From assembly GCF_900143055.1 (NCBI RefSeq), contig NZ_FRCW01000012.1:1-64000 (forward strand): a DNA stretch of 64,000 nt, written 5' to 3'. Positions 13,603-28,740 of this stretch are shown here, one piece after another. This DNA is from Fibrobacter sp. UWR3 (GTDB lineage: Bacteria > Fibrobacterota > Fibrobacteria > Fibrobacterales > Fibrobacteraceae). A program made the translations under genes and the position numbers. Numbering within the stretch: the first letter of the stretch is position 1; each line of letters begins with the position of its first letter. The notes beneath the pieces are model-generated. The model ran no database searches, was not told where the DNA came from, and was given only the letters and a program-made list of their open reading frames with translations.

Positions 13603-15705
13603 ATGAATTTGCAGAACAGGATTTTGCCGCTTGTGGCCGCGATGTTGCTTTGTCTGGTGGCCTGCTCAAAGTCGGGCGACGTGACCTCCGAAATCGACGA
13701 CCCGAACAAGGATGCAGACAAGCAGGTGTCCGAGCAGGTGCCCGCCCGTAGCATCAGGGCTTGGTCCGAACTTTCTTTTTCGGGCCAGACGGCCTCGGTG
13801 CATGTCTTGGAACTGGATTCCCTGCTGAACGAGACGGGGCGAGAATTCAGTATGGAGAAGGAAGAGGGTAAGGGATTTTTTGTCGATTCCATCCTGCTGA
13901 GGGGGGACTATGCCTTACTGCGTTCCGAGAATTTCGAGATTCGGTACATCCGTGTACCCGGTGCGGAATACAAGTCCGACAGGAAGCTGTCCTTCGACAT
14001 ACTGGTAGACCTTTCGGATACGGTACCGGCGTTCATATCGCTTGCGGGGCATTTCGTGACCGGTCGTGCGCGTTTCCTCGTGGCGCAGGGCGTTTCTCCC
14101 GATTCTGCGGTGAGGCTCGCGAATACTGAACTGCTCAACGTGTTCTCTTTCGTTTCTGATTCCGTAGGGGACGAATCGATTCTGTCGTCCGCAAATTATT
14201 CCGATGCGAATGAAGCGGCGTATGTCATCCAGAAGGCCTTTGAACCGTTCATTCCGGCGGAAATGTACGACGACGTGAAGTCTGCGTTCGAAGAAGCCTT
14301 TTTCTCGACAGGCTCTTTCACGTATTTCGACGTGTTTACCGGCGCTGCGGACAATCTTGCAGATTCCTCCCTGCACAGCTCGTTTATTTACGGTTACGAT
14401 GACGGAACAATAGAAAAGCGCGTTGTCGCCGGGGAAATTTTTAGGCGGCAGTTCTTCGCGAAGATCCTCGGCCTGGGGGCCTGCAAAAAGGACAACCTTT
14501 GTGAAATCAGGACGCTGAAGGATTCCCTGAGTAGGTTCGACGGTGGCGAGTTCGTCTGCGATTCGCTCGGCTGGCACATTTCTTCGAACCTGCTGCGCAA
14601 TACCTGCAGTTACGGACCCGCGAAAGGCTACGAAATGCGCAGGGGTGCGCTCGATACCACCGAGTGGTTCTATTATCACGATTTTTTCGAGAGGTGGCAG
14701 GAATGCGATGAAATAGAAAGCGTCATAGGCATGTGCTATGAGGAACGTGAGGGCGAATACGGAGCCATAAACGACAGTGCCTTCTACTATTGCTATAACC
14801 GCTTGTGGCTGGATGTCCCGCGTGACGAGTACTACGCGAATTTTATCAAGTGCGATTCTGCCGAGAGGTACATCACGTTTGCGAGCGATTCCACGACTCC
14901 CTTCTACTGCGAGTACGGTACCCTGCGTTCCTTGACGGATGCTGAACGCACCTTGTATTACAACACGAACGGCCTCAAGTGCGATACCGTGCCCGACTTG
15001 ATGCTGGGTAACGATTCCGTGACCAAGTATGTGTGCGATGCGGGCCACCTGCGCACTGTAACTGACCTGGAGGTGAAGGCGAATCGCGGCTGCACGAGTT
15101 ACAACTACGACGAAATCGCGAAGATTGAATACTCGATCTACCGTTGCCGTGGGCAGTGGAAGTACTACAAGGATTCGCTCTACCGCGATACGGTTACCGA
15201 TGCTCGTGACGGGCAGAAGTACCCGCTTATCGGCATGGGCGCGCAGCTCTGGTTTGCGGCGAACCTGAATTATGCGACCGACAGTAGCTGGTGCTTTAAC
15301 GAGTCGGCTGAAAATTGCGACAAGTATGGTCGCCTGTACCGCCTGGCCGAAGCCGCTGCTGTCAAGGAGGATTCTCTGCTGTGCCCCAAGGGGTTCCATG
15401 TGCCGGACAAGGACGAGTTCGAGGCGTTCACTGATTTTGTGTCGCAGTGGCGCCCTTCGGGCGAATCGCTTTCTCCGGTGCTTAAGAGCAAGGCTTCCGG
15501 TGGCAATGACTACTTCGGGTTTAACGCGGTGATTCCGGGTTCGCTGGGCTCGGAAGGCTATGCCGGTGGAGCCTTGTACATGTGTTCGAAGGGGCTGCCT
15601 ACGGCGAATTCCGTGCGCCGCTGGCGCCTGGCTACGGACCTCTCTTTCACCTACGACACAGTATCGAAAACAGCAACCTGCTATATCCGCTGCCTAAGCG
15701 ATTAG
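13603..15705 (+). CDS. FISUMP-domain lipoprotein 3
   Basis: Third and most diverged member of the cluster, about 700 residues. I prefer the ATG at 13603 (alternatives 13600 and a GTG at 13591) because GAGG at 13593-13596 is correctly spaced. The leader ends LLCLVAC (lipobox). The middle holds many CDS/W repeats. The C-terminal FISUMP domain (DGQKYPLIGMGAQLWFAANL ... LCPKGFHVPDKDEF ... CYIRCLSD) is shorter than in its neighbours. It follows the previous stop by 12 bp. Confidence 0.86.
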   Translation: MNLQNRILPLVAAMLLCLVACSKSGDVTSEIDDPNKDADKQVSEQVPARSIRAWSELSFSGQTASVHVLELDSLLNETGREFSMEKEEGKGFFVDSILLRGDYALLRSENFEIRYIRVPGAEYKSDRKLSFDILVDLSDTVPAFISLAGHFVTGRARFLVAQGVSPDSAVRLANTELLNVFSFVSDSVGDESILSSANYSDANEAAYVIQKAFEPFIPAEMYDDVKSAFEEAFFSTGSFTYFDVFTGAADNLADSSLHSSFIYGYDDGTIEKRVVAGEIFRRQFFAKILGLGACKKDNLCEIRTLKDSLSRFDGGEFVCDSLGWHISSNLLRNTCSYGPAKGYEMRRGALDTTEWFYYHDFFERWQECDEIESVIGMCYEEREGEYGAINDSAFYYCYNRLWLDVPRDEYYANFIKCDSAERYITFASDSTTPFYCEYGTLRSLTDAERTLYYNTNGLKCDTVPDLMLGNDSVTKYVCDAGHLRTVTDLEVKANRGCTSYNYDEIAKIEYSIYRCRGQWKYYKDSLYRDTVTDARDGQKYPLIGMGAQLWFAANLNYATDSSWCFNESAENCDKYGRLYRLAEAAAVKEDSLLCPKGFHVPDKDEFEAFTDFVSQWRPSGESLSPVLKSKASGGNDYFGFNAVIPGSLGSEGYAGGALYMCSKGLPTANSVRRWRLATDLSFTYDTVSKTATCYIRCLSD

Positions 15706-22193: not shown

Positions 22194-22500
22194 ACCCGAA
22201 AACTAATAAAATTCAAGCCCCGCAGGTATGAAATTGCGAAAATAAAGCCCAAAAGGAATAACTGATTGATTTGGCGGGGGAGGAGTCCCCCTGCTTGCAG
22301 CCTTGCCCTGTTGTCACCCTGGAGCGCAGCGATAGGGTCCAGGGCAAGTCTTCTAGCACCCCCTCGCCTAAGGGGCTCCGCCCCCTAAAACCCCCGGCTT
22401 GACCAGGGATCTTCTTTCCATACGTCATCCCCGCGTCTTTTCTCGTCATCCTCGCGTAGGCGAGGATCTTCCTCTCGCATATTTATATATATTTCCCACA
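22194..22500. repeat. Gene-free stretch with dispersed palindromic repeats
   Basis: No credible gene. It holds GC-rich palindromes (GGCGGGGGAGGAGTCCCCC at 22272 on; GTCACCCTGGAGCGCAGCG near 22306) and a tract built from GTCATCC(C/T)CGCG units ending CGTAGGCGAGGATCTTCC. The same closing tract and the following TATTTATATATATTTCC occur before the second rod element at 23820-23870. The AT-rich segment 22480-22494 may carry the promoter of rod element A. Confidence 0.5.
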
Positions 22501-22708
22501 GACATAGCCCCTTTCCTTGCGGTCTGGGGCGCGAGTTCAACTTAGAGTTAGCTCTTATTCTCGAAGTGGAAATCTGGTAAATTTTCAAAATACACGAGAG
22601 TAAGACGAACACTCACACCCTTTCGGGCGTGGGTCGTTTGTGCTTATTGTGTATTAGGTTTACCAGAGCCTCCATTTCGGTAAGTGCATTCGACGCCACG
22701 CCTTTTTT
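22501..22708 (+). ncRNA. Structured rod element A (candidate ncRNA or leader)
   Basis: A ~208-nt segment with a 5' hairpin (GCCCC 22507-22511 with GGGGC 22526-22530) and then a long rod. Paired arms are 22562-22570/22671-22679, 22573-22581/22659-22667, 22589-22595/22649-22655, 22599-22604/22643-22648, 22605-22610/22636-22641 and an apical GC stem. It ends in CCACGCC followed by T6. The 3' CGACGCCACGCC can instead pair with the right side of the apical stem (22625-22636) to form an intrinsic terminator. Element B (23873-24078) keeps every stem with different bases. No known RNA family was recognised. Confidence 0.6.
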
Positions 22709-22807
22709 ACTCCTAAAAAATGCGCGTGAATAAGGGCAATTCACCCAAACGGCAACATTGGACCTGTTGCTGTTAGGTTTCACAATGGTCCGATAAAGGA
22801 GCCTGTT

Positions 22808-23491
22808 ATGGCTGATTATGCAAACTTTCTTAAAGAAGTCGTAAGGAATTATGCTTGCAGAAAGCGAATCGAAGATATTGAGAGCTATCTCGCTAAGCGC
22901 CTGTTGCAAGAATTACATATAAAGTATTTAAAACCTCTGATTACGGAAGTTCCCGCGTTTAGGTCTCTTCCGCATCCTTTTGGAGGAGAAATGAGGAACT
23001 GGAGTGTCAATCCTGCGGCGGAAATGCTTGATGTGCATGATTTGGCTCAAAGCGTCCTTGATAACGGTAAAGACAGTTCTTTAGTTCAGCTGACGACATA
23101 TCCCGGTCTGGGAAGTAGGCAATATCTCGATCCTTTCAATTATTACTATCTCAAGCCCATGGTTAAGGGGCATGAATACAAGCATTTCTTGGCCCATAGC
23201 CTCCCGTACAATCTTGCATACATTTACGGTCAGAAGGTGTATAATCATGCTAGGCAATCGGAACAGCAACTGTCCAGAAACGATATTGCCATGAAGATAA
23301 AGGCTTGGCTCGACTACAAGTATGATCCGGACTACTCCAGATTTGACTTCATGAAGGACCGTGTGGAAGACTTTGACGAATACTTGGATGACATGGAAAA
23401 CGAAGAAAATATATATTATGGTTGTCCTAGCATTGAAGAGGAACTTTTCGATGATTACAAGATGTTCATTGACGAAATGGATCTTGAGTGA
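22808..23491 (+). CDS. Unrecognised protein, 227 residues
   Basis: Begins at ATG 22808, preceded by AAAGGAG at good spacing. The sequence is hydrophilic, has no signal peptide or membrane segment, and ends in a strongly acidic tail (EDFDEYLDDMENEE, then EEELFDDYKMF). A central part is rich in aromatic residues (DPFNYYYLKPMVKGHEYKHFLAHSLPYNLAYIYG). I recognise no domain. It lies between the two rod elements, about 100 bp downstream of element A, and may be a defence or mobile-cassette gene controlled by it; that is inference. Confidence 0.65.
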   Translation: MADYANFLKEVVRNYACRKRIEDIESYLAKRLLQELHIKYLKPLITEVPAFRSLPHPFGGEMRNWSVNPAAEMLDVHDLAQSVLDNGKDSSLVQLTTYPGLGSRQYLDPFNYYYLKPMVKGHEYKHFLAHSLPYNLAYIYGQKVYNHARQSEQQLSRNDIAMKIKAWLDYKYDPDYSRFDFMKDRVEDFDEYLDDMENEENIYYGCPSIEEELFDDYKMFIDEMDLE

Positions 23492-23735
23492 GGCTTTCTT
23501 GCTTGCACTCGCCGTGCATCCTGTCGTGAATCAAAAGGACTCGTCTGCTTGCTGCTATACGGATGCGCAAAGCGAACGTTCCATCTTGCGCGATTCATCT
23601 TTGACAGACGAACAACGAAAAGTCCATTATCAAAAATTACGCTATCTAAGAGACGAAAAACGGAAGAACTCGGCTACGGACACCTCCAGTGTTCGTAACG
23701 ACAATTCCGCGAGTCACAAAAAGCCTCAAAAATAG
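23484..23735 (+). CDS. Possible small overlapping protein (83 residues)
   Basis: From a TTG at 23484, overlapping the end of the preceding gene by 8 bases, a frame runs 83 residues. The beginning is hydrophobic (EAFLLALAVHPVV) and the rest is a charged helix (SLTDEQRKVHYQKLRYLRDE). The composition looks protein-like and the overlap would allow coupled translation, but there is no ATG and no homology I recognise. It may equally be a broken 3' extension. Confidence 0.3.
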   Translation: MSEAFLLALAVHPVVNQKDSSACCYTDAQSERSILRDSSLTDEQRKVHYQKLRYLRDEKRKNSATDTSSVRNDNSASHKKPQK

Positions 23736-23872
23736 CGGTTGCCGTCCATTTTTGTCGTCCTCGCGATTTCTCTCGTCATCCCCGCGTCTTTTCTCGTCAT
23801 CCTCGCGATTTCTCTCGTCATCCTCGCGTAGGCGAGGATCTTCCTCTCGCATATTTATATATATTTCCCCAT

Positions 23873-24078
23873 GACATAGCTCCGTACCGAATGGTTCGGA
23901 GCGACCGGAAATTTTGAGATTCGTCTCTTATTCTTGGCTCTAAAACTACCACTTTTAAGTCGTACGAGAATAAGACGAACGCTCACGTCCCATCTGGGGC
24001 GTGGGTCGTTTGTGCTTATTGTACGACGGGGTGTGGTAGCCCTTAGAGCCAGTAAGCCTACGACTCCACGCCTTTTTT
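23873..24078 (+). ncRNA. Structured rod element B (candidate ncRNA or leader)
   Basis: Second copy of the rod element. 5' hairpin GCTCCG/CGGAGC (23879-23884/23897-23902, inner ACC/GGT). Rod arms: 23935-23943/24043-24051, 23946-23952/24033-24039, 23959-23965/24021-24027, 23969-23974/24015-24020, and an apical stem CACGTCCC/GGGGCGTG. The outer arms share no sequence with those of element A yet pair equally well. It ends CGACTCCACGCC-T6, which can pair with GGGCGTGGGTCG as a terminator. It lies ~115 bp before the restriction-modification gene. Confidence 0.6.
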
Positions 24079-24192: not shown

Positions 24193-27100
24193 ATGGCCGA
24201 TTTGGACAAGAGCAAGATTCAAGCCGTCGCACAATACATCGACGAGGTTTCCAAGCAGTTTTCTACGGGCAAGGCGACAGAGCACAGCTACCGCCCGGCA
24301 CTTGCGAAACTCCTTAGCGACTTGCTCCCCAAATTCACCATCACCAACGAACCGAGCCGCATCCAGTGCGGAGCTCCGGACTACATTATCGCGAAAGGGA
24401 AAGGTGCAACATCGATTCCTGTTGCCTTCGTAGAGGCTAAAGACATTGGCGATAGTGACCTGGATGGCAACCGCCAGCACAAGGAACAGTTCAACCGCTA
24501 TAAGAACTCGCTAGACCATATCCTTTTCACGGATTACCTTGATTTTCATCTTTATGAAAACGGCGAATTCATCAATAGCATTCGTATTGCGGAAATCAAA
24601 GGAAATAAGATTGCGCTGATAGACACCAATGTCCCGATGTTTTTGGAAATGGTGGCGCACATTGCAGAATCAACGCCACAGAAGATTACGAGCTCTACGA
24701 AGCTGGCGCAAATGATGGCGGCCAAGGCGCGCCTCCTTGCCGAGGTAATTGAAAAGACTCTCGAAACCGATAGCGAAAAGACGAGCGAACTGGCGGGACA
24801 ATGGAAGTCTTTCCAGAAGGTGCTGATTCACGATTTGACGGAACGGCAATTTGCCGATATTTACGCACAGACAATCTGCTATGGAATGTTTGCGGCAAGA
24901 CTCCACGACGACACTCCCGACACGTTCAGTCGCGCTGAAGCGGCGGAATTAATCCCCAAAACAAATCCATTCTTACGCAAGGTTTTCCAAAATGTGGCAA
25001 CCTTTGATGTAGATACAAGCATCGCATGGATTGTAGATGACCTGGCAGAAACATTCCGGGTGACGGATATGCCGAAGGTCATGAAGAATTTTGGAAAGGC
25101 TACGGGTCAAGCCGACCCCATGATTCACTTCTACGAAGATTTTCTGCGCTATTACGACCCCAAGCAGAAAAAGGCGTGTGGCGTTTATTACACGCCCGAA
25201 CCCGTTGTCCACTTTATCGTCAATGCCGTTGATGAAATTCTGAAATCCCGATTCAATTTGAGTGATGGTCTTGCCGACACGAGCAAGGTGACGATTCGTC
25301 AAACTTCGAACCTATACACGGACAATCGCACCAAAGACCACAAGAAATACGAAACGCGGGAATACCATAAAGTTCAAATTCTCGACCCTGCAACTGGAAC
25401 GGGCACATTCCTTGCCGAAGTGGTCCGCAAGATATATTCCGGTATGGAAAATCGGAAGGGCGCTTGGCAAAACTATGTGGAAGAACACCTACTCCCGCGC
25501 CTGAACGGTTTTGAATTCATGATGGCTCCATACGCCGTTGCGCATTTGAAATTGGACATGGTGCTGGCGCAGACGGGTTACAAGGCAAGGCAGGACAAGC
25601 GACTCCGCATATTTCTTACCAATTCCCTTGAAGAATGTGACCACGATACGGGAACATTGTTTGCACAATGGCTGGCGCAAGAAGCGAACGAGGCAAACCT
25701 TGTCAAGCGCGATACACCCGTAATGGTGATGATTGGAAATCCACCGTATAGCGGAGAAAGTTCCAATAATGGCAAATGGATAATGCATTTGTTGGAGGAT
25801 TATAAAAAAGAGCCTGGTGGAAAGGAAAAATTGAATGAACGAAATCCAAAGTGGATTAACGATGATTATGTAAAATTTATACGTCTTGGGCATTATTTTG
25901 TAAAAAAGAATGGAGAGGGTGTTCTTGCATTTATCAACCCTCACGGATTTTTGGATAACCCGACATTTCGTGGAATGCGTTGGAGCCTTTTACAAGCGTT
26001 TGATGAAATCTATACACTTGATTTGCATGGCAATTCGAAAAAGAAAGAAACTGCACCCGATGGGGGTAAAGACGAAAATGTTTTTGACATCATGCAGGGT
26101 GTAAGCATTAACATTTTTGTTAAGAAAAAACAGAGTGTCATCCTGAGCGAAGCCCGTAAGGGCGAAGTCGAAGGATCTCTAGCTAAAGTATATCACTACG
26201 AACTCTTTGGCAAACGCTTTGAAAAATACACATTTTTAGCAGACACTCCATTCAAAAATATTAAGTGGAAAAAATTAAATCCTCAAGGCCCGCAATATTT
26301 CTTTGTGCCTAAAAGTGAAGTTGGAAAAGACGAGTACGAAAAAGGATTTGCCGCAAATGAATTGTTTAAGATGAATTCAATGGGCGTTACAACAGGCAAG
26401 GACAAAATTCTTGTAAGCGAATCTATAAAAGATTTACAGGATAATATTTCCACTGAATATGGATATTATGGTAAAGAATTTGTGAGAAAAGTTTTGTATA
26501 GACCTTTTGACAAACAATATCTTTATTATGATACATCAAAATTGGCAAGAGCAAGAGAATCTCTAGCAAAAAATTTTGAAAAAGATAATTACGGTCTATG
26601 TCTTATACGAATTAATAGCCGCGATGAAGGCCTAACCGTCTTTATTACTGATAAAATTACAGATAAAACATTGCTTTCTTCTAAAGATAACGCCAATGTT
26701 TTCCCGCTCTACCTTTACCCTACCGAAGGTGAAGAACAACTCGGCGAAACCCGCAAGCCCAATCTAGACGAGAAAATTTGGCATAAGATCGACGCATGCC
26801 TAGATGAATGTCATTCTGGAGGCCGAGGGCCGATAGAATCCATGGACCCTATCGAGGCGTCGCCTCTCCAGGGTGACAATCGTTCGCATATTACAACTCC
26901 AGAACAAGTATTCGATTACATCTACGGCGTTCTCCATACACCGTCCTATCGTGAAAAATATAAGGAATTCCTTAAAATTGATTTTCCGCGTATTCCTTAT
27001 CCTGAAAACAAGGAGGATTTTGAACGCATTGCCTCCATTGGCAATAAACTCCGCAAATTGCACCTGATGGAAGAAATTCCACCGCAGGCGACCTCCTTCG

Positions 27101-27390
27101 ACATCGAAGGCGATAATGTTGTAAGCGATATTCGTTTTGAAAAGGAGATCCCCGACCAAGTCGGGGAAGATATTGGCGGAAAAGTCTACATCAACAAGGC
27201 GCAGTATTTTGCGAACGTTCCTGAACTAGCCTGGAACTTCTACATCGGTGGCTATCAACCCGCACAAAAGTGGCTCAAAGACCGCAAAAACCGCACCCTT
27301 ACCTTCGACGATATCTCGCATTACCGCAAAATCATCGCTATCCTTATCGAAACCCACAATTTGATGCAGGAACTCGATAAAAAAGCGTAA
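24193..27390 (+). CDS. Type IIG-like restriction-modification enzyme
   Basis: A 1065-residue single-chain enzyme (ATG at 24193 after GGAG). The N-terminal ~170 residues contain a PD-(D/E)xK nuclease core (APDYII ... VAFVEAK). An adenine-methyltransferase core follows, with motif I DPATGTGTFL (about 420) and motif IV NPPY (about 535). The C-terminal half would supply target recognition. No helicase motifs were seen, so it is not type ISP. Three palindromic repeats lie in frame within it (26137-26178, 26810-26877, 27147-27167), adding non-native segments. Base composition in 25.7-26.7 kb is more AT-rich than the flanks, suggesting an exchanged recognition domain. Confidence 0.85.
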   Translation: MADLDKSKIQAVAQYIDEVSKQFSTGKATEHSYRPALAKLLSDLLPKFTITNEPSRIQCGAPDYIIAKGKGATSIPVAFVEAKDIGDSDLDGNRQHKEQFNRYKNSLDHILFTDYLDFHLYENGEFINSIRIAEIKGNKIALIDTNVPMFLEMVAHIAESTPQKITSSTKLAQMMAAKARLLAEVIEKTLETDSEKTSELAGQWKSFQKVLIHDLTERQFADIYAQTICYGMFAARLHDDTPDTFSRAEAAELIPKTNPFLRKVFQNVATFDVDTSIAWIVDDLAETFRVTDMPKVMKNFGKATGQADPMIHFYEDFLRYYDPKQKKACGVYYTPEPVVHFIVNAVDEILKSRFNLSDGLADTSKVTIRQTSNLYTDNRTKDHKKYETREYHKVQILDPATGTGTFLAEVVRKIYSGMENRKGAWQNYVEEHLLPRLNGFEFMMAPYAVAHLKLDMVLAQTGYKARQDKRLRIFLTNSLEECDHDTGTLFAQWLAQEANEANLVKRDTPVMVMIGNPPYSGESSNNGKWIMHLLEDYKKEPGGKEKLNERNPKWINDDYVKFIRLGHYFVKKNGEGVLAFINPHGFLDNPTFRGMRWSLLQAFDEIYTLDLHGNSKKKETAPDGGKDENVFDIMQGVSINIFVKKKQSVILSEARKGEVEGSLAKVYHYELFGKRFEKYTFLADTPFKNIKWKKLNPQGPQYFFVPKSEVGKDEYEKGFAANELFKMNSMGVTTGKDKILVSESIKDLQDNISTEYGYYGKEFVRKVLYRPFDKQYLYYDTSKLARARESLAKNFEKDNYGLCLIRINSRDEGLTVFITDKITDKTLLSSKDNANVFPLYLYPTEGEEQLGETRKPNLDEKIWHKIDACLDECHSGGRGPIESMDPIEASPLQGDNRSHITTPEQVFDYIYGVLHTPSYREKYKEFLKIDFPRIPYPENKEDFERIASIGNKLRKLHLMEEIPPQATSFDIEGDNVVSDIRFEKEIPDQVGEDIGGKVYINKAQYFANVPELAWNFYIGGYQPAQKWLKDRKNRTLTFDDISHYRKIIAILIETHNLMQELDKKA
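26137..26178. repeat. Palindromic repeat inserted in frame in the RM gene (1)
   Basis: 42 bases, 14 codons, matching the dapF-dapL intergenic repeat (GTCATCCTGAGCGAAG ... CGAAGTCGAAGGATCT). It is read as VILSEARKGEVEGS without disturbing the frame, between KKKQS and LAKVYHY. Confidence 0.75.
26810..26877. repeat. Palindromic repeat inserted in frame in the RM gene (2)
   Basis: 68 bases starting GTCATTCTGGAGG, containing CGATAGAATCCATGG and ending CTCTCCAGGGTGAC. The start and the GATAGAATCCAT core match the intergenic repeat at 24100-24142. It is translated as SGGRGPIESMDPIEASPLQG, an atypical Gly/Pro-rich insert. Confidence 0.7.
27147..27167. repeat. Short palindrome in the RM gene (3)
   Basis: GATCCCCGAC-CAA-GTCGGGGA forms a 9-bp stem and is read as IPDQVGED. 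It resembles common dispersed ATCCCCGAC repeats. Its origin as an insertion is less certain than for the two others. Confidence 0.4.
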
Positions 27391-28185: not shown

Positions 28186-28494
28186 TTACAATCCCAGAAT
28201 CTTCAGGTAATCCATTCGACTGTTCAAAATTCGAATGACAAAAACTTTATCACGTTCGTTCCGGTAAAAGACCAAATACCCGCTGACAGAAAGGCAACGA
28301 AACTTCGTCAAGCTATTTACCTTACCTCTTAACGAAGGGCCGATCTCAGGGAAGACGGCTAAGTTGTCAATGGCATCAAGAATTTCAATGAGTTTTTCGT
28401 TCGCCGCCTTGGGACTTCCCAGCTCGGTTTCGATATAAGCTTTGATACCGTCTAAATCTTCGACGGCTTTTGGCGAAAATACGACGGAGGGCAT
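28186..28494 (-). CDS. RelE/ParE-family toxin
   Basis: 102 residues with the ParE fold pattern: SPKAVEDLDGIKAYI near the N-terminus, then FPEIGPSLRG, a central FRCLSVSGYLVFYR strand pair and VFVIRILNSRMDYLKIL at the end. It starts on the base immediately after the antitoxin stop codon, so the pair is translationally coupled. The target (ribosome or gyrase) cannot be told from sequence. Confidence 0.85.
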   Translation of the reverse strand: MPSVVFSPKAVEDLDGIKAYIETELGSPKAANEKLIEILDAIDNLAVFPEIGPSLRGKVNSLTKFRCLSVSGYLVFYRNERDKVFVIRILNSRMDYLKILGL

Positions 28495-28740
28495 CTAGAC
28501 CTCGTATTTTTTCCGCACATCAGCGGCGGAAAGCCATCGTCCCTGTTCGGCGGAGCGTTCGCCTTCGGCAAGAGCCTTCTGTAGCTTTAGTTCGGCGACC
28601 ATGCGTTCGTATTCCTTGATATCAATTACAACGTAACAACCGCGGCCGTTCTTAGTCAAAAAGACTGGAGAATCTTCGGTCACGTTCTGAAGAACTTCGT
28701 TATAATTGCGCAAATCAGAAACTGGCAAAATACAGGGCAT
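28495..28740 (-). CDS. Phd/YefM-family antitoxin
   Basis: 81 residues beginning MPCILPVSDLRNYNEVLQNV, then PVFLTKNGRGCYVVIDIKEYERM, the typical Phd/YefM DNA-binding half. The C-terminal ~35 residues are charged and would cover the ParE toxin. GGAGG lies before the ATG at 28740. It precedes and presumably represses the toxin gene. Confidence 0.88.
   Translation of the reverse strand: MPCILPVSDLRNYNEVLQNVTEDSPVFLTKNGRGCYVVIDIKEYERMVAELKLQKALAEGERSAEQGRWLSAADVRKKYEV

Follow-up and report, generated by a model that had tools for sequence, protein, structure and literature searches.

The window analyzed here is a stretch of 64,000 nucleotides from Fibrobacter sp. UWR3 (contig NZ_FRCW01000012.1, positions 1 to 64,000 of the forward strand). 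It contains two structured elements, element 1 at 22501–22708 and element 2 at 23873–24078, which both lie on the plus strand and are both about 205 nt long. A sequence-only reading of this DNA had placed each of them about 100–115 bp upstream of a gene, one of which encodes a restriction-modification (R-M) enzyme, and the distances are indeed 100 and 115 bases. The gene behind element 2 encodes a type ISP/IIG restriction enzyme-methyltransferase with a Type_ISP_C match at E 7e-79; its start ATG at 24193 was chosen by eye, and start codons and transcript starts are predictions throughout. The gene behind element 1 encodes a 227-aa protein with no Pfam match at E<0.01 and no PADLOC match at E<1e-3. 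A second Fibrobacter genome has this protein too (L120:4212-4892, minus strand), where it follows the same variant of the element and again lies just 5′ of a type ISP/IIG gene.

The predicted fold of element 1 has an energy of -79 kcal/mol (z -5.9) and that of element 2 an energy of -91.2 kcal/mol (z -7.1), and 0 of 200 dinucleotide shuffles were as good in either case. This bears out the claim that two structured elements lie at these positions, and the shared anchors and compensatory arm changes between copies that had been described for them are present in both. Each element starts about 10 bases 3′ of an A/T-rich promoter-like stretch and ends with CCACGCC-T6, and transcription of element 1 would start near 22499-22501. 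The consensus of one class of copies (class S, described below) 5′ of the motif GACATAG is nTTTatnTaaaaTTcCcatTGACATAG. A scan with the sigma-70 consensus did not pick up the promoter-like stretch of element 1, and no tRNA or tmRNA was found. The parts of both elements are collected in Table 1.

Table 1. Parts of the two elements and the genes that follow them, in window coordinates.
Feature	Position	Strand	Basis or pairing
Element 1, A/T-rich promoter-like stretch (TATTTATATATATT...)	22481..22500	+	sequence; putative
Element 1, 5′ anchor GACATAGC and variable 5′ hairpin GCCCC/GGGGC	22501..22530	+	hairpin sequence varies between copies
Element 1, strand a AGAGTTAGCTCTTATTCTC	22544..22562	+	partner b (terminated fold), d (rod), possibly e (read-through RNA)
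Element 1, left arm L: outer arm, loop TCTGGTAAA, inner arm AATACAC	22562..22594	+	copy-specific L:R pairing
Element 1, strand b CGAGAGTAAGACGAACACTCACA	22595..22617	+	both-fold comparison
Element 1, strand c GGGCGTGGGTCGTTTGTGCTTATTG	22625..22649	+	partner b (rod), or d plus terminator strand
Element 1, right arm R, complement of L: GTGTATT ... TTTACCAGA ... CCATTTC	22650..22679	+	fold, L:R pairing
Element 1, strand d and terminator 3′ strand (GGTAAGTGCATT + CGACGCCACGCC)	22679..22702	+	both-fold comparison
Element 1, U-run (T6), intrinsic terminator	22703..22708	+	sequence
Element 1, segment e GTGAATAAGGGCAATTCAC, 3′ of terminator, complementary to a	22726..22744	+	homologous copy L045
227-aa protein	22808..23491	+	ORF
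Element 2, A/T-rich promoter-like stretch	23851..23870	+	sequence, class-S consensus; putative
Element 2, 5′ anchor and hairpin GCTCCG/CGGAGC	23873..23902	+	sequence, fold
Element 2, strand a GAGATTCGTCTCTTATTCTT	23916..23935	+	both-fold comparison
Element 2, left arm L, loop CTACCAC	23935..23964	+	L:R pairing
Element 2, strand b CGAGAATAAGACGAACGCTCACG	23965..23987	+	both-fold comparison
Element 2, strand c GGGCGTGGGTCGTTTGTGCTTATTG	23997..24021	+	both-fold comparison
Element 2, right arm R, loop GTGGTAG	24021..24050	+	fold, L:R pairing
Element 2, strand d and terminator 3′ strand (AGTAAGCCTA + CGACTCCACGCC)	24051..24072	+	both-fold comparison
Element 2, U-run (T6)	24073..24078	+	sequence
Type ISP/IIG restriction enzyme-methyltransferase (N6_Mtase, Type_ISP_C)	24193..27390	+	

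Two further features are found nearby. A dispersed short repeat, TCGTCATCC(T/C)CGCG.AGGCGAGGATC, occurs at 22431-22470 and 23752-23842, just 5′ of both promoters; it has dozens of copies in the genome and is separate from the RNA family. On the minus strand at 28186-28740, a ParE/RelE-like toxin ORF (102 aa) stands behind a Phd/YefM-like antitoxin ORF (81 aa), and, judged from the translations only, these two ORFs are probably a toxin-antitoxin pair.

Each element is built from strands that occur in a fixed order: a (CTCTTATTCT and upstream bases), the arm L, b (AGAATAAGACGAACGCTCACG), an apical loop, c (GGGCGTGGGTCGTTTGTGCTTATT), the arm R, d (GGTAAGCGC), the terminator strand (CGACTCCACGCC) and the U-run. 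These strands can pair in two ways. In the first fold, a pairs with b and c pairs with d, which gives two hairpins, the second of which is an intrinsic terminator. In the second fold, termed the rod, a pairs with d, b pairs with c, and the two variable arms L and R pair with each other. Hairpin 1 (a-L-b) and hairpin 2 (c-R-d) are approximately each other's reverse complement. It had been noticed from the sequence that the 3′ segment CGAC(G/T)CCACGCC can pair alternatively with the apical right arm ahead of T6, in a manner exclusive with the rod, and this is true of both elements.

Copies of the element fall into two classes. In class S the apical loop between b and c is about 4-12 nt long, and most copies carry the GACATAG 5′ hairpin. 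In class L the apical region is a domain of 70-124 nt with sequence in common between copies, and a subclass of class L has a second 5′ half (a′, L1′, b′) with the same arms 3′ of the U-run. A few copies are irregular. Those at L095:308-482 and L077:1501-1640 (both minus strand) have a changed 5′ half, with different a and b and less b:c pairing, and an intact right half and terminator. The copy at L209:6491-6651 (minus strand) has L and R from two different variants without mutual pairing, and it arose by natural recombination or is a chimera of the assembly.

The two elements are not a special unit of their locus but members of a widespread family. The 3.55-Mb genome from which the window comes holds about a dozen copies, and blastn with element 1 gave further copies in it. 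A model, R1, was built from ten of these in the two-hairpin fold, with the apical insert cut out. It finds matches in 94 of 168 Fibrobacterota genomes and in 78 of the 79 genomes of the window's genus, many of the surveyed genomes being metagenome-assembled genomes (MAGs), and its many homologues carry compensatory changes. R1 matches number up to 17 per genome where only 17 candidates were scored, and up to 26 in one genome where 150 were scored, fragments included. A scan with a DNA pattern yielded 88 stretches, among them one in the cultured F. intestinalis ATCC 43854, and, apart from three, these stretches carry Fibrobacter or Fibrobacteraceae/Fibrobacterales names. Two of the exceptions come from rumen MAGs, one of them named as Bacteroidales. 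The third is a Paenibacillus match, which was rejected as due to chance, with no model match in that locus or genome.

Weak R1 matches in other Fibrobacterota families were judged real on inspection. A second model, R2, built only from five sequences of two of these other families, recovers both window elements at E 1.6e-8 and 9e-6, with the proviso that the E-values of all these models are rough, and finds new members in further genomes. The rumen Bacteroidales MAG contains nine divergent copies, and its placement in Bacteroidota fits its T9SS sorting domains. Beside these nine copies lies a Fibrobacter-like class-S copy (L371, G168:C68:608-775), which reflects either horizontal transfer or a misbinned contig. 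A third model, R3, was built only from the nine divergent copies; of 394 other genomes of the Bacteroidota searched with it, 38 contain full-length members. At the places found in this way, R1 matched 27 of 29 and R2 matched 29 of 29, on the same strand; with R1, false matches at Bacteroidota loci scored at most 17 bits and true matches 25-55 bits. On the 64-kb window, R3 recovers exactly elements 1 and 2 (E 5e-12 and 1e-7, equally rough) and nothing more up to E = 1. A named carrier in the Bacteroidota is a plasmid of Rhizosphaericola mali (Chitinophagaceae), NZ_CP044017.1, with a member at 15011-15150, and viral contigs and phages gave no match to the family. This is apparently a large, undescribed leader family that spans Fibrobacter and its relatives as well as the Bacteroidota.

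The conservation of the two folds was assessed mainly in A7, a sequence-based MAFFT alignment of 58 distinct class-S copies. In the rod, 91.4% of cells are paired, all four Watson-Crick pairs are used in the outer and inner arms, and cells with double changes number 354, compared to 110.6±8.5 in shuffles, which take the sequences as unrelated, and at most 98 in slid controls. The two-hairpin fold (a:b and c:d) is 95.7% paired in the same alignment, and 0 of 500 shuffles, with relatedness again ignored, were as good. The terminator stem GGCGTGG/CCACGCC is 99.5% paired and is followed by T5-6. Its sequence is almost fixed inside class S, while both sides of the stem change between classes and families. 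Co-changing stems include GGCGTG+AGTTG/CAACT+CACGCC, GGCGTGGGTCG/CGAC.CCACGCC and GGGCCG/CGGT, and in other families GGACGCG/CGCGTCC, GGCGTC/GACGCC and GGGCGCA/TGCGCCC.

The arms provide a further line of evidence, for L pairs with R in a copy-specific manner. The energy is -27.5 kcal/mol for self pairs and -11.2 kcal/mol for non-self pairs, and the own partner is the best of 41 in 115 of 135 copies. The same holds in the Bacteroidota (-29.8 and -13.7), where the own partner is best in 24 of 29. These arms lie outside the structure of R1, and therefore did not select the R1 hits. The agreement of three independent models, together with the many different arm sequences, is a stronger argument than the shuffle statistics, and the comparison of copies indicates that both folds are under selection.

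The pairing also identifies the functional molecule. G·U pairs outnumber A·C pairs by 197 to 50 in a:b, by 337 to 18 in b:c and by 354 to 4 in c:d, which shows that the functional, pairing molecule is the plus-strand RNA; the comparison reads these three stems, since fixed mismatches mask any signal in the L:R arms. A DNA-level repeat, such as a MITE-like repeat or a recombination or attachment site whose hairpins act as DNA, would account for dispersed, multi-copy elements that lie partly in variable gene regions and have near-identical anchors across genomes. It is scarcely credible, however, given this G·U excess, the conserved U-run, and the strong sequence divergence across phyla through which both RNA folds persist. 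The orientation to genes is also fixed, which speaks against MITEs and integron attC sites alike.

An ORF on the same strand follows the element in 120 of 123 cases, at a median distance of 74 nt past the U-run. In the ten well-assembled genomes that were compared, an element precedes 23 of 65 N6_Mtase/N6_N4_Mtase hits on the same strand at a distance of no more than 2.5 kb, compared to an expectation of about 0.2 for all 65 (about 0.3% each), and one case lies within 2.5 kb on the other side. Among 54 proteins encoded downstream of elements, a scan found numerous methyltransferases as well as R-M enzymes of types I, II, IIG/ISP and III, including EcoRI-type, MmeI-type and C5 enzymes. In another Fibrobacterota family, an element (L324) lies 27 nt before an N6_N4 methylase. 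Further partners are FISUMP lipoproteins, DUF4417, 8xMP and SPFH proteins; FISUMP genes were seen with class L, but no enrichment is claimed, because the FISUMP family has 44-136 hits per genome.

The partners in the Bacteroidota are different. Among the 25 largest ORFs within about 420 nt, 11 encode TonB-receptor plug domains, 4 encode response regulators and 1 encodes sigma-70 domains, and an EVE-HNH protein and a weak ABC-3C match were also found. Some of these genes start about 230-290 nt downstream, which is farther than in Fibrobacter. The link to R-M genes is strong in Fibrobacter, but it is not a trait of the whole family. A dedicated R-M regulator was ruled out on the grounds that members also precede lipoproteins, TonB receptors and response regulators. 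The "defence island" of the sequence-only reading fits the R-M link of the Fibrobacter class S, but is too narrow for a family found elsewhere before genes for TonB-dependent receptors, response regulators and FISUMP lipoproteins.

The diversity of the downstream genes does not suggest any single signal, and it bears on whether the element could be a ligand-binding riboswitch, in which a metabolite bound by the b-c domain, or elsewhere in the RNA, would tip the fold. The switch layout is alike, and the long apical domain of class L with its shared sequence could be read as a binding domain. Nevertheless, the apex of class S is only a short loop, the conserved positions sit in strands that both folds need, no constant aptamer-like core stands apart from the expression platform, and there is no Rfam match. 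R-M systems, TonB receptors, response regulators and lipoproteins also have no common metabolite, and a riboswitch is thus very unlikely.

Contrary to the extent first given to it, the element does not end at the U-run, for segments downstream are conserved in part of the family. One of these, segment e, is complementary to a. The mean z of this pairing is -2.7 in class L compared to -0.4 in a control region, and z is below -2 in 26% of class-S copies. In the homologous copy L045, whose segment e is identical to that of element 1, the z is -6.4. The other segment is L1′ of the class L subclass, which lies 3′ of the terminator and pairs with R of its own copy at -27.1 compared to -14.9, the own R being best in 8 of 10. 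Sequestration of the ribosome site 3′ of the terminator is weak or marginal (mean pairing 0.69 compared to 0.59, p 0.045, with only 34 control genes). Since segments 3′ of the U-run covary with the element, the read-through RNA matters, and since e and L1′ are present only in that RNA, a cis-acting leader is favored over a free small RNA.

The latter would be a free-standing rod of about 205 nt, with its own promoter and terminator, that acts in trans through its arms and loops on other copies or on mRNAs and spreads with cassettes. The promoter-like stretch and the intrinsic terminator do frame such an RNA, the arms differ between copies as addresses would, and some distant members (L323 and L327) have a local 3′ hairpin that could terminate transcription beside an intact rod, which counts against attenuation. 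The covariation of e and L1′ points the other way, as does the same-strand gene behind nearly every copy. In addition, copies of the same genome share arms neither more nor less than expected, and blastn with element 1 found no isolated partner sequence in its own genome, which leaves the earlier suggestion of a trans-acting RNA unsupported. A free-standing RNA is therefore considered unlikely.

The preferred reading, to which a probability of roughly 70% is given, is that each element is the 5′ leader of the next gene and acts in cis as a transcription attenuator, that is, as a terminator/antiterminator switch. An attenuator had been among the first suggestions for these elements, and several features argue for it: two exclusive folds that are both conserved, a G+C-rich stem with a U-run, a 5′ position on the same strand as the gene, and covariation beyond the terminator. 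The leader would probably decide the expression of the next gene through its setting for read-through in the cell. When each hairpin is paired with itself (a:b and c:d), hairpin 2 would abut the U-run and transcription would stop after about 205 nt. When the halves are instead paired together (b:c, L:R and a:d), one long rod would occupy both terminator strands, and RNA polymerase would read on. The change of state is envisaged as a branch migration that starts from the apical b:c hairpin, with the L and R loops, being complementary, as a probable aid. In class L and in some members of class S, the read-through RNA would also contain segment e with its complementarity to a.

Predicted energies suggest how this switch may be set. 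The b:c hairpin is already formed once c has been made in 132 of 134 copies, as judged from the minimum free energy of the prefix. In class S the rod exceeds the terminated fold in stability by 9.5 kcal/mol, and in class L the two are equal, which would make read-through the default in class S and leave an even choice in class L. Termination would then be favored by anything that stabilizes hairpin 1, blocks the contact between the L and R loops or alters the speed of transcription, and candidate triggers are a protein, an RNA, polymerase speed or chance. Counting against an attenuator are, besides the local 3′ hairpins mentioned above, the significance of a:e in only 26% of class S, the marginal sequestration of the ribosome site, the mismatched arms of L209, the distance of about 230-290 nt to some Bacteroidota genes, and the varied functions of the genes downstream.

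A tentative and much less likely extension of the attenuator is that the family is an RNA-only bistable switch, spanning phyla, that makes expression variable for genes facing phages and the surroundings (R-M systems, TonB-dependent receptors and surface lipoproteins). Near-isoenergetic folds could produce on/off variation from cell to cell or a response to changes in transcription speed, and the fast-changing but always self-complementary arms could keep copies in the same genome from cross-reacting. No signal of such insulation was seen among the 18 pairs available, in which arms are shared as often as expected. If true, such a switch would parallel phase variation at the RNA level, with the DNA unchanged.

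Several known systems resemble this family in part. The attenuators of trp and his operons also have four strands, in which 1:2 and 3:4 (terminator) pairing excludes 2:3 (antiterminator) pairing, in a leader 5′ of the controlled gene. In contrast to them, the present family has a 1:4 pairing and two arms, which lengthen the antiterminator into a rod, as well as complementary hairpin loops and, in some members, a fifth segment located 3′ of the terminator. It also lacks a conserved leader ORF. Ribosome-mediated attenuation, in which translation of or stalling on a short leader ORF would set a:b against b:c, would suit the shared layout and the 8-codon ATG ORF of 31 of 91 class-S leaders. That ORF, however, sits in the variable 5′ hairpin and is lost where the hairpin changes, and an ATG ORF of at least 4 codons occurs in the first 60 nt of only 38 of the 91, which makes this mechanism most improbable. 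The plasmids pT181 and ColE1 (RNA I/RNA II) offer a parallel in antisense-RNA attenuation and kissing-loop control: whether transcription terminates there depends on hairpins with complementary loops and on the exchange of strands between one hairpin and another that is nearly its reverse complement. The present family differs from such antisense control in that both hairpins are in one transcript and covary copy by copy; a separate antisense RNA was not found.

The view that these elements belong to no known RNA family holds against Rfam 15 (4227 families, including T-box, 6S, Flavo-1 and Bacteroidales-1), from which none reached the gathering score at any element in the window, 16 Fibrobacter loci, 17 distant loci and 20 Bacteroidota loci. 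Relaxed searches, with E up to 10, gave only low-scoring chance matches. The open-access main text on computed bacterial RNA motifs does not mention Fibrobacter motifs of this kind, and an unnamed motif in its supplements is possible. Flavo-1 (RF01705), Bacteroidales-1 (RF01693) and Bacteroid-trp (RF01692) are computed Bacteroidota RNA motifs, some of which lie in 5′ regions (PMC2864571, PMC9723704); Flavo-1 is listed for Bacteroidetes and has been matched to some 5′ regions in Flavobacterium psychrophilum. Members of the present family score below the gathering score of each. R-M systems are known to be regulated by C proteins or by repressors such as RptR (PMC12255303; PMC3695507). The family shares with these the control of R-M gene expression, but the predicted control element is an RNA leader common to all main R-M types and to unrelated genes.

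With this family, two major gut and environmental phyla with few known cis-regulatory RNAs gain a large RNA family whose model hits can number two dozen or more in one genome. Its design is unusual, with two mutually antisense hairpins on one transcript and both global folds kept by evolution. It is predicted that RNA controls a sizeable share of the R-M systems in fiber-degrading rumen Fibrobacter, systems that hamper genetic work on these organisms. Natural variants can serve directly for the design of disruption and restoration tests, since every copy comes with its own compensatory arms.

In several Fibrobacter genomes, paired elements about 1.8 kb apart flank a small DUF4417-like gene, and the second element is followed by R-M genes of varying type (G096:C3:70649/72451, G061:C82:31137/32942, G069:C9:55369/57170, G063:C1:279587/281389 and G098:C5:363759/365568). 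The arrangement of these loci indicates that the pair is a conserved slot with exchangeable R-M systems.
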